From a virus, in the IMG/VR virus record IMGVR_UViG_3300030012_002072, positions 1 through 64,000 of that record: a stretch of 64,000 bases of DNA; one strand, given 5' to 3'. Made by a program: the position numbers and the translations under genes. Below, piece after piece: positions 59,906 to 64,000 of this stretch. How positions within the stretch are numbered: position 1 is the first letter of the stretch; each line of letters begins with the position of its first letter. Below the pieces are notes generated by a model. That model was not told the origin of the DNA. It ran no database searches and worked only from the letters and a program-made list of their open reading frames with translations.

Positions 59906-60039
59906 TTGCCTTGCCCCCTGTATTTCTTGTAAGAACGCTTTTTGTTCTTGTTCATATTGATACTAAATGTGCCACGACCATTGCCTTGTGAAGTTTTCTT
60001 CTTGTGCGACACATGATTATTTCCCCATGCTTTTGCCAT
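59902..60039 (-). CDS. Small highly basic protein, 45 aa
   Basis: MAKAWGNNHVSHKKKTSQGN then NMNKNKKRSYKKYRGQGK. It is lysine-rich and starts by a TAATG overlap. It may bind nucleic acid. Resembles small basic early proteins of other phages only in composition. Confidence 0.5.
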   Translation of the reverse strand: MAKAWGNNHVSHKKKTSQGNGRGTFSINMNKNKKRSYKKYRGQGK

Positions 60040-60257
60040 TATGCACTCTCCTTAGTATTCCATACCACTTTTATACCTCGTCTTGCGAGTTCGTTTAGGC
60101 ACTTCTGCCTTTGCTTTGGTTTCACATTAGATTTGTTAATCTCTGCGAATAATTCTTCCTTTGGTGTATTCTTGAGATAGTAGTGTCTTACAGGTAGTTG
60201 ACTTGCAGGAACACCTCTCTTATACACTTTTTCTGATGGTTTAAACTTTGCTGGCAT
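60039..60257 (-). CDS. Hypothetical protein, 72 aa, first gene of early operon
   Basis: The start with AAGGAGGG at 60257 is preferred to the longer frame. Contains PVRHYYLKNTPKEELFAEIN and KQRQKCLNELARRGIKVVW, a helical basic protein. It begins the operon that ends at the terminator at 56836, after a ~130-nt leader. Confidence 0.55.
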   Translation of the reverse strand: MPAKFKPSEKVYKRGVPASQLPVRHYYLKNTPKEELFAEINKSNVKPKQRQKCLNELARRGIKVVWNTKESA

Positions 60258-60392: not shown

Positions 60393-60421
60393 ATTATACT
60401 CACTTTTATACTGATTGTCAA
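60393..60421 (-). promoter_or_regulatory. Sigma-70-type promoter for the early operon
   Basis: AGTTCTTGACA, 17-bp spacer, TATAATATATG. The ~130-nt leader 60258-60386 holds the AAGGAGGG site and no other gene. Confidence 0.85.
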
Positions 60422-60472
60422 GAACTATTTTGAATTAAGGTAGGAAATTTCGTGTGTCTACTTTTTGAAGAT

Positions 60473-60505
60473 AAAAAAAGAGGGAAGCGTTGATTAACTT
60501 CCCTC
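60473..60505 (-). terminator. Strong intrinsic terminator of the large RNA
   Basis: On the minus strand GAGGGAAG pairs perfectly with CTTCCCTC around a 10-nt loop, then seven Ts. Confidence 0.88.
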
Positions 60506-61449
60506 CAAAAAACTGTTTGTTTTTTACTTGAAGACTTACTGCCCCACTAAGTAGTTTACTCTGGGAGGGGGACTTGCCCACCAAACCAATCTTTCAACTA
60601 TCCTCGCAGTAAGTGTGGAGTTCTCTATACGCCACTCAGTCTGCAATTAGATTATAAGCATCGCTTCCTCTAATCTCGTGATGTGGCTCTATAAACTCCT
60701 TCGCCCATGACACCTATGCTCGCATTTACTTGAGGGTGAGGATTGAAGACTTGGGGTGTTCACATCGAAATGCTACTTACTGGTATCTTCCAAATCACAT
60801 CACTTGCACACTGAAGTGTCGTTTTTCTACTTTGACAGGTAAACCATGAATCGCCGTAGAGTTAAGTGCTGTCCGTTCACAGTCGACAGCATACTGATTG
60901 CAATAAGTGTGTTGCAATCCACATTGAGTTTTCTCCTTGTATCCACTCTTTATACATCAGTCGCTCTACCTAAAGTATATGCTGTTGTGTATAAACCCTG
61001 TTTCGTGTCAGCGTGGTTTCTTCACTCTATCTGATATTATCGTAGTATCTGATGTCAATCACGGTGTAATTTTGGATTTGCACTTGCTAATATACACTAA
61101 CACAAGGTTTTTAAGTGCCGACACACTCCTGAAGGGGTTTCTCTCTACGCTACTTACCACCAGTGGACTACAATCATGGGTGTTGACCTATGTAGTTTGG
61201 CATTACTGATAAGAGTAGAATCCTTACTTCTTTACCGACCAGTCAATCGAATATGCACTCCCTTTTATGTTCGCAAAATATGTCTGCATACGACTATCAA
61301 AACTACGCATATTATCTCTCTGTTACTGCACCTCTCAATATGTTTTGAGCATCAGGCATTTTTTATGTGATGCCTCACGAAGTAGCAATCCTTTGTCGTG
61401 GTAAAACATTACGCACTTGGTTTGCTTTATTTGTTTCTTTTCAGAATAT
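60473..61449 (-). ncRNA. Large structured non-coding RNA candidate (~0.97 kb)
   Basis: No long frame covers this interval. It has its own promoter (61456-61484) and terminator (60473-60505). Perfect helices are visible by eye: AGGCAT/ATGCCT at 61354 and 61370; ACTACA/TGTAGT at 61167 and 61191; GCACTT/AAGTGC at 61080 and 61113; GATTGCAA/TTGCAATC at 60896 and 60912; TGCTGTC/GACAGCA at 60867 and 60885; AGATTA/TAATCT with AAGC/GCTT inside at 60649-60676; and a long-range 9-bp GCAGTAAGT/ACTTACTGC at 60606 and 60534. A CAT-TTCG-ATG hairpin is also present. This resembles the style of giant ornate phage RNAs (GOLLD, ROOL), but homology is untested. Only frames of 15-28 codons exist; one, 61224-61310, has a weak Shine-Dalgarno. 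Confidence 0.68.
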
Positions 61450-61455
61450 AAGTAT

Positions 61456-61484
61456 ATTATATCCGCTTTTTAACCTTTTGTCAA
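61456..61484 (-). promoter_or_regulatory. Sigma-70-type promoter of the large RNA
   Basis: TTCTTGACA, 17-bp spacer, TATAAT. The next gene on this strand lies more than 1 kb away, beyond the terminator. Confidence 0.85.
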
Positions 61485-61506
61485 GAAAAATTTTGATTTA
61501 TTTCTT

Positions 61507-61577
61507 GAAAGGTGGGGTCGAGTTGCTACCATCAAATTGGTCTGTTATCTCGACCCCTTCTCTCTTTTCTCAAATAT
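61507..61577 (-). ncRNA. Candidate small hairpin RNA
   Basis: Between the promoter at 61584 and the next promoter, GGGGTCGAG and CTCGACCCC form a perfect 9-bp helix (61514-61557) around a 26-nt loop. The only frame here is 20 codons and runs into the next promoter. A short T-rich stretch follows, without a clear T-run. Confidence 0.4.
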
Positions 61578-61583
61578 ATGTAT

Positions 61584-61612
61584 ATTATACATACTTCAAG
61601 ACCAGTTGTCAA
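61584..61612 (-). promoter_or_regulatory. Sigma-70-type promoter for small hairpin RNA
   Basis: TTGACA, 17-bp spacer, TATAAT on the minus strand. Confidence 0.78.
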
Positions 61613-61642
61613 TAGAAAATGTGATTTATTTTCTACTTAACT

Positions 61643-61725
61643 CACTTTTAAACTGGGTGTAGGAGTCGAACCTACCACCACCCCAACGGGTATGCTTCCA
61701 TAGACACTTCCCCAGTTTAAAAGTG
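61643..61725 (-). ncRNA. tRNA-like element in a 15-bp inverted repeat
   Basis: A perfect 15-bp repeat (CACTTTTAAACTGGG and complement) closes the element. Inside, GTAGG-TTCGACT-CCTAC is a perfect T-arm with a canonical T-loop. An ACCC-GTT-GGGGT mini-hairpin stands where an anticodon arm would be, and a D-arm-like GTG...GG...CAT precedes it. No CCA and no normal anticodon loop are present, so it is not a standard tRNA. Confidence 0.5.
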
Positions 61726-61754
61726 GATTACTTAGGGTAATCACTCCTTGACAC

Positions 61755-62066
61755 TTATTGTGAGATTGCGTCAACTAATCTTTGTAGGTCTTGCTTACCT
61801 GCTTTGACAAGTGTTGGAAGTTCAATTCCAAAGTGTTCTGAGATAGTTGCTACAAGTTCTGCCTTTGCTACAACTGGTTCGCCAGTTTTAGTAGTTCTTG
61901 GTTGTGCCTTGTAAACGCCTTCTCTTGAAAGTTTAGCAATGATACTTCTTGTAGTTTTGCCAAGTTCTCTAGCAAGTTCATCTACTGTTTCCCTAGTAGG
62001 GTTTGCTGTGTATTGCTCAGTCATTTGAGCAACCATTTCGTCTGTATAATTTTTAGCGTTTGCCAT
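61755..62066 (-). CDS. HTH regulator (short isoform), paralogue of 57071
   Basis: 103 residues from the ATG with GGGAG upstream. YTDEMVAQMTEQYTANPTRETV, ELARELGKTTRSIIAKLSREG and TTKTGEPVVAKAELVATI parallel the protein at 57071. It is expressed from the promoter at 62094. The frame stays open upstream to an ATG with GAGGAGAG at 62171, which would add 35 basic residues. It probably binds DNA as an early regulator. Confidence 0.78.
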   Translation of the reverse strand: MANAKNYTDEMVAQMTEQYTANPTRETVDELARELGKTTRSIIAKLSREGVYKAQPRTTKTGEPVVAKAELVATISEHFGIELPTLVKAGKQDLQRLVDAISQ

Positions 62067-63054: not shown

Positions 63055-63079
63055 ATAATTAACCTAATTATAGACTAGT

Positions 63080-63143
63080 GCATCACTTTGACACTTCGTT
63101 TTAGCACTCACGCATCACTTTAGCACTCATCACTTTTGCACTC
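63080..63143 (+). repeat. Iteron-like repeats, block 1
   Basis: Four imperfect units of the form CATCACTTTnnCACTC, about 15-19 bp apart, ending in TGGCGC. Confidence 0.65.
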
Positions 63144-63291
63144 TGGCGCGGTTCGCGCAAACGATTCGACCTATAAAACCGCTGTTTTAGCGGGGTTAGG
63201 CGAATATTGGGGAAACGATGTGGCTAATAATGGAATACAGCGCAGGCAAGACTTAATAAAGTGAAATAGTGATAAAAAATTAAAAAAACGC

Positions 63292-63417: not shown

Positions 63418-63558
63418 ATGAAAAACGAAAAGAAAGTTGAAAAAACAAAAGCAACATTAGTTCGTGAAGTAGAAGTAAAATTCAAAAAGGACAAAGGTTT
63501 CTTTGACTCCTTAGAAAGAGCAAACAAAGAAACAATCGTCAAATTACTCTCTCTTTAG
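63418..63558 (+). CDS. Tiny charged protein, 46 aa (leaderless)
   Basis: MKNEKKVEKTKATLVREVEV followed by KFKKDKGFFDSLERANKETI. It is rich in Lys and Glu. The ATG coincides with the predicted transcription start, as at the other leaderless genes. A terminator follows ~90 bp later. No family recognised; it may be an early regulator or origin protein. Confidence 0.6.
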   Translation: MKNEKKVEKTKATLVREVEVKFKKDKGFFDSLERANKETIVKLLSL

Positions 63559-63650
63559 TCGACAGTTGTTAATAGTTTCCGAAGTGTAAGTTACTTTGTT
63601 CCTCAAAACTAATCATCTGTTCCTATTGGCACGGAGCAGGTGGTCGCCAA

Positions 63651-63694
63651 CCCGACAGATGTCCTAGAGGAACGGACAAATGTCGGGTTTTTTT
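63651..63694 (+). terminator. Intrinsic terminator after the tiny gene
   Basis: CCCGACA (63651-63657) pairs with TGTCGGG (63681-63687), followed by seven Ts. An alternative inner pairing with GGACAAATGTC is possible. Confidence 0.8.
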
Positions 63695-63798: not shown

Positions 63799-63817
63799 GT
63801 CGGCTTCGCCCAGGTAG

Positions 63818-63887
63818 ACTTTGCACTTGCTTCACTTTTCCACTCTGGCGCAGACGCATCACTTTAACACTCATCACTTTTCCACTC
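63818..63887 (+). repeat. Iteron-like repeats, block 2
   Basis: Four units of the CATCACTTTnnCACTC family, two copies followed by TGGCGCAG. It repeats block 1 with changes. Confidence 0.65.
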
Positions 63888-64000
63888 TGGCGCAGGGGCG
63901 CGCTGTAAATCGCTGTAATTTTATATCACGCAGGGGGTGTCCCTCAAAATTAATTGACGAAAAAAAAGTGGTGGAAGAATCCAGCAATCTTTGATATAAT

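Follow-up and report, generated by a model that had tools for sequence, protein, structure and literature searches.

To our knowledge, bacteria and phages have yielded only a handful of RNA classes of the size and complexity considered here; for two of them, GOLLD and ROOL (Rumen-Originating, Ornate, Large RNA), the function is, as far as we know, still open. GOLLD has a conserved 3' part, assembles into a 14-mer RNA-only cage (PMC12286853) and accumulates in lytic infection (PMC7567579). ROOL also forms an RNA-only cage, the solved example measuring 659 nt, and OLE dimerises (PMC12286853). In the lytic Vibrio phage ICP1, the most abundant infection transcript comes from an ORF-less interval of ~1 kb, gp139-gp140 (PMC7567579).

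The locus described here lies in a stretch of 64,000 bases (the window), the first part (1-64000) of a virus record 75,569 bases long whose source is an uncultured marine virus of bacteria. The genome carries tailed-phage genes. Among their products are an SbcCD-like nuclease, a terminase small subunit, a DNA polymerase that shares 47% identity with its counterparts in T5-like phages, a ribonucleotide reductase with 65% identity to Pelagibacter phages, and a 594-aa protein whose identity to one from Pelagibacter phage HTVC008M is 36%. These matches to T5-like and Pelagibacter phage proteins make a marine heterotroph the likely host. Near the end of the window, on the minus strand (the strand was not given in the preliminary description), comparative sequence analysis identifies a gene for a large structured non-coding RNA of ~970 nt (Table 1).

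Comparison with known large RNAs

In keeping with the loose criteria for large ornate phage RNAs, the RNA is non-coding, longer than ~600 nt and phage-encoded, with an elaborate secondary structure and pseudoknots supported by covariation. It resembles GOLLD in its length class (~0.8-1 kb), complexity, carriage by phages or prophages, marine examples, a tRNA nearby in some members, and the combination of one conserved with one variable half. Unlike GOLLD, however, it has a different signature pseudoknot and no detectable sequence or covariance-model match, and its conserved islands are 5' and central with the variable half at the 3' end, whereas the universally conserved part of GOLLD is the 3' part (PMC12286853). 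With ROOL it shares carriage by phages and richness in pseudoknots, but it gives no match in Rfam scans and spans ~970 nt with a modular 3' domain, as against 659 nt for the solved ROOL. OLE and HEARO are likewise large structured bacterial RNAs; the present RNA differs in matching neither, and the neighbours characterised (a D5-like protein, PPK2, MazG and small basic proteins) include neither an IS605-type transposon nor an OLE partner gene.

Rfam scans of the window and its relatives returned no family match, only tRNAs and chance matches. The covariance models of GOLLD, ROOL, OLE and HEARO, proposed at the outset as the check to run, gave none up to E=10 on 60400-61800 and none up to E=1 at the loci of ten relatives. 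The preliminary description had left the choice between a GOLLD- or ROOL-like RNA and a new class; the first half of that proposal is not supported, while the second is supported by sequence comparison, which points to a new class of the large-ornate-phage-RNA kind without an Rfam family.

The ICP1 transcript is similar in coming from a phage and from an ORF-less interval of ~1 kb. Its interval (L267 4098-5108) gave no match to the core profile or to the models R1 and R2 introduced below, and was thus rejected as a homologue and is best regarded as an analogue by size; its neighbouring genes also differ from those found here. Against Rfam, the same interval gave no credible match, the best being isrJ at 28 bits against a cut-off of 37 bits, in the terminal region.

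A non-coding transcription unit and its relatives

The transcription start (~61449) was inferred from the -10 box, and the 3' end was taken as the T-run of the terminator. The promoter is a near-consensus site, sites of the general TTGACA/TATAAT shape occurring ~20 times across the window, and a site of this type lies upstream in most homologues whose contig reaches far enough. T-run terminators stand at the RNA end in many relatives, with stem sequences that differ from relative to relative, so that termination itself appears to be selected. The GC content of the gene is 0.41, against 0.36 for the window, and its flanks are a small DNA-binding-like gene on one side and a gene for a 72-aa basic protein on the other.

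Evidence for coding was sought within the gene and across its relatives. The longest ORF inside it, of 90 codons, is antisense to the RNA; among 38 homologues, the longest ORFs lie at differing positions and are mostly antisense, with a mean of 88 codons, somewhat above the Markov null of 72 +/- 3. Substitutions between close relatives show no 3-periodicity, being spread evenly over positions modulo 3, and most indels have lengths that three does not divide. A consensus phage promoter, a strong terminator and the lack of any real frame, all read by the preliminary description from the single sequence, are therefore borne out, and conserved protein frames in related phages, which it had named as counter-evidence, were looked for in the relatives and not found.

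Folding of the single sequence is weaker ground. The claim of at least seven perfect helices of 6-9 bp holds: 32 of at least 6 bp are present (20.0 +/- 4.4 in dinucleotide shuffles, p ~0.005) and 13 of at least 7 bp (5.2 in shuffles), with one helix of 9 bp (60614/60534) that by itself is not beyond chance. The minimum free energy z-score is only -2.3 for the RNA strand and similar, -2.0, for the plus strand, which makes single-sequence folding weak evidence. In one sequence alone, promoter, terminator, missing frame, modest folding and stem excess are suggestive only.

Relatives were fetched as viral contigs by anchoring on the upstream DNA-binding-like gene and a PPK2-like gene. By blastn, L047 aligns at 83% over 1173 bases and L048 at 78% over 1291, and conserved islands occur in many others. 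Searched with a profile of the core (RNA positions ~140-450), viral contigs yielded 76 distinct loci with a homologue; for the weakest of them, E lies between 0.01 and 0.4. The unit from promoter to next promoter is kept in most homologues, mostly at 0.85-1.33 kb. Model R1, which covers the 5' part, is confined to closer relatives; model R2, built on 43 positions of the central pseudoknot, had a single match in each of 46 sources out of 100, every one of them oriented as the RNA should be. Compact versions of 350-560 nt occupy the space between the same two genes in L035-L041 and keep the central motif; they have no clear promoter of their own, so the compact RNA may there sit in an mRNA. In L178 and L181, long apparently non-coding stretches with promoters, lacking the central motif, follow the DNA-binding-like gene and may be RNAs of other types that take the same place.

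Beyond viral contigs, the exact central-motif pattern was absent from the 84,980 prokaryote species genomes scanned for it, and a protein-anchored scan returned one real relative, a 4.45-kb contig with the flanking gene and a weak motif, binned in a Flavobacteriaceae MAG and probably a stray virus contig. Among cultured phages, a DNA search with the region and tblastn searches with the DNA-binding-like and 72-aa proteins gave no match. A limited literature search, with subscription papers and preprints mostly outside it, yielded no description of this RNA.

Pseudoknotted core, variable domain and neighbouring RNAs

Covariation among relatives is the decisive evidence for an RNA here. In a 35-sequence core, an APC-corrected G-test against columns simulated on a tree placed 15 pairs at the lowest attainable E of 0.025, of which 14 are canonical in 83% of cases or more and one in 74%; of the 21 best covarying pairs on the alignment of full-length sequences, 19 also reach at least 83%. 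A core model of 47 pairs, pseudoknots included, was then counted on an independently made alignment of 35 sequences: 94.8% of 1625 cells are canonical, and 37 of the 47 pairs change on both sides. Compensatory cells number 351, against 111.5 +/- 10 in shuffles and 32-61 with partners slid by 1-3 columns, and the covariation score is 0.603 against 0.205 (shuffled) and 0.07-0.09 (slid partners). The structure was partly derived from the sequences used for counting, so the sliding controls favour the model, though the margin is very large. One encoded helix (216-218/247-249, core numbering) is only 71% paired on the independent alignment. Owing to pseudoknotted pairing and variable lengths, RNAalifold run on the full set recovered no more than some of the local hairpins. 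The alignment of homologous intervals suggested in the preliminary description thus came out in favour of co-varying stems.

The structured core, made up of the 5' and central domains, is predicted to hold at least four pseudoknots (Table 1). All seven pairs in the long helix of the first H-type pseudoknot vary on both sides among relatives, and a lone tertiary pair joins loop residue 61122 to tail residue 61107 (AU:14 GC:11 CG:8). The central pseudoknot of 43 nt is the signature that members share, kept even in the compact relatives.

Table 1. Features of the RNA gene and its surroundings (window positions; helices are given strand by strand in RNA order).
Feature	Position	Strand	Support or remark
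Predicted large structured non-coding RNA gene	60473..61449	-	no coding signal; 76 homologous loci; covariation; GC
Promoter, TTGACA-N17-TATAAT with AT-rich upstream flank	61456..61484	-	near-consensus site
Intrinsic terminator, GAGGGAAG/CTTCCCTC hairpin (60505-60480), then T-run	60473..60505	-	
5' domain pseudoknot, CTG/CAG (61355-61353/61328-61326) and CTC/GAG (61349-61347/61334-61332)	61308..61355	-	covariation
5' domain pseudoknot, loop strand CATATT pairing with AATATG	61342-61337/61313-61308	-	covariation
H-type pseudoknot 1, stem GTC/GAC (61294-61292/61284-61282); loop GTATGCA (61291-61285) pairing with TGCATAT (61257-61251)	61251..61294	-	
H-type pseudoknot 1, inner stem TTT/AAA	61278-61276/61266-61264	-	
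Hairpin TCGAT/GTCGG (61250-61246/61239-61235)	within 61129..61250	-	covariation
Long-range pseudoknot, hairpin loop CTG (61242-61240) and downstream AAG pairing with one strand CTTCAG	61134-61129 (CTTCAG)	-	covariation
Hairpin AGTGT/GCACT (61127-61123/61118-61114)	61107..61127	-	covariation
Stem	near 61097/61064	-	
Central 43-nt signature pseudoknot, hairpin ATCAGAT/ATCAGAT (61053-61047/61035-61029)	61028..61068	-	R2 matches, covariation
Central pseudoknot, second helix, loop ACG pairing with upstream CGT	61043-61041/61063-61061	-	
Variable modular 3' domain	60533..61011	-	closed near 3' end by 9-bp stem
9-bp closing stem, ACTTACTGC/GCAGTAAGT	60614-60606/60542-60534	-	compensating changes in relatives
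tRNA-like structure, 15-bp acceptor-like stem, D-arm-like AAGTGTCTACGGAAGCAC and canonical T-arm-like GTTCGACTC hairpins	61643..61725	-	
Separate short RNA unit, hairpin GGGGTCGAG/CTCGACCCC, loop ATAACAGACCAATTTGATGGTAGCAA	61512..61577	-	own promoter 61612-61584
Upstream DNA-binding-like gene, 103 aa, weak match to T5 D5-like regulator family	61755..62066	-	synteny anchor
Downstream gene for 72-aa lysine/arginine-rich protein	60039..60257	-	own promoter 60421-60393

The fast-evolving 3' domain looks modular; it aligns poorly, and its structure is therefore only partly supported. The 9-bp long-range closure pointed out in the preliminary description is present and is kept in relatives with compensating changes, as TCATACTGC/GCAGTATGA and GCTAACTGC/GCAGTTAGC. 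Small elements (a GATTCA..TGTCAA hairpin, GGGCAAGTCC, CAAGTAATGnGAGCATAG, TCAGTGTGC and ACCATAAGAACGG) occur at differing positions across relatives, one recurring element being found even within terminator hairpins.

The large RNA is part of an RNA-gene island that also comprises a tRNA-like structure and a short hairpin RNA, joined in L047-L049 by a tRNA-Glu. The tRNA-like structure follows the DNA-binding-like gene and is without a normal anticodon arm. ARAGORN does not call it as a tRNA and finds none in the window, and the tRNA-Sec model gives it only 20 bits (E=0.57). The motif recurs in 30 of 63 representative loci with stems that appear to covary; the tRNA-like element noticed at first is thus real and conserved, and possibly a second undescribed phage RNA motif. 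The loop of the short RNA recurs in L048, L047, L049, L063, L066 and L070. Between these two elements lies tRNA-Glu(UUC) in L047 (471-545), L048 (2216-2290) and L049 (577-651), a gene absent from the window.

On the other side, 39 of the 40 loci that bear the RNA have a homologue of the 72-aa protein beside it, with the family pattern MPAKFKPSEK...KPKxRQKCLNELxRRGIKVVW. It has no Pfam match; its AlphaFold2 model reaches a mean pLDDT of 89, and a fold search for a known RNA-binding fold gave no significant match. The protein is a weak candidate for an RNA partner: the conservation extends to other genes nearby and so does not single it out.

Elsewhere in the window, a non-coding stretch on the plus strand (63550-63690) that follows a 46-aa gene and carries the inverted repeats AACCCGACAGATG...ACAAATGTCGGGTTTTTT is probably either a further small RNA or a terminator; 63060-63180 and 63800-63960, where coding is sparse, hold repeated blocks, e.g. 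GCATCACTTT.GCACT/CTCTGGCGC.

Modes of action and competing explanations

The explanation to which we give slightly more than an even chance is a trans-acting large structured RNA gene that founds a class outside Rfam, its product being stable and acting through three-dimensional shape during infection. In most relatives the RNA is a separate unit with promoter and terminator signals of its own. A host-type RNA polymerase would transcribe it during infection, the RNA would accumulate as a stable transcript, and its shape would act in trans either by self-assembly into a multimer, as in GOLLD and ROOL, or by binding a small basic protein, for example the 72-aa neighbour. Multimer formation is put forward purely by analogy with these two RNAs. 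Its retention in the compact relatives marks the central pseudoknot as a possible functional centre.

A trans-acting regulatory or decoy RNA, pairing with or sequestering host or phage RNAs or proteins and using its fold to present binding sites without forming a particle, is possible, if on the unlikely side; it could take the form of a sponge, a polymerase or ribosome binder, or an anti-defence decoy. Such a role would fit the company that the RNA keeps in its island (a tRNA-like structure, a short RNA and, in L047-L049, a tRNA-Glu) and the recurrent small hairpin modules of the 3' domain, which resemble repeated presentation elements. Conservation is highest, however, in a rigid pseudoknotted core and not in long unpaired stretches suited to binding a target. 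More speculative, and in our judgement doubtful, is a modular phage RNA machine in which the central pseudoknot would be an 'engine' (binding or catalytic) set in a scaffold with interchangeable 3' hairpin modules, the ~1-kb forms self-assembling and the compact forms representing the minimal unit.

Control of the flanking genes by a long element acting in cis (a leader, a 3' UTR or a riboswitch-like element) would account for the same two genes flanking the RNA nearly everywhere and for the compact L035-L041 forms lying between them without an evident promoter. This reading is nevertheless unlikely: in the window and most relatives the RNA is bounded by a promoter and a terminator of its own, the next gene has a new promoter before it, and the RNA is far longer than known riboswitches. 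A highly diverged GOLLD, ROOL or OLE homologue beyond the reach of Rfam models, for which similar length, phage location and a tRNA nearby in some relatives can be cited, is very unlikely in view of the failed model searches at both thresholds and of the opposite placing of the part conserved in GOLLD. We consider it highly improbable that the locus encodes a mobile-element or catalytic RNA (group I/II intron, OMEGA/HEARO guide RNA, retron RNA or known self-cleaving ribozyme): pseudoknots nested round a small invariant core are in the style of catalytic RNAs, but Rfam gives no match and the RNA always occupies one syntenic locus, in a single copy per genome fragment, with no insertion behaviour. 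A degenerate or unrecognised protein-coding region, to which antisense ORFs slightly above the Markov null might have pointed, was rejected as practically negligible on the missing periodicity, the indel lengths, the scattered ORFs and the compensatory pairs across the core.

The RNA represents an independent class, with dozens of diverse homologues, naturally compact versions and a core supported by covariation; it provides material for both structural and functional work, and it illustrates that viral 'intergenic' kilobases can be RNA genes. The class could also be used to test whether large phage RNAs generally form particles.
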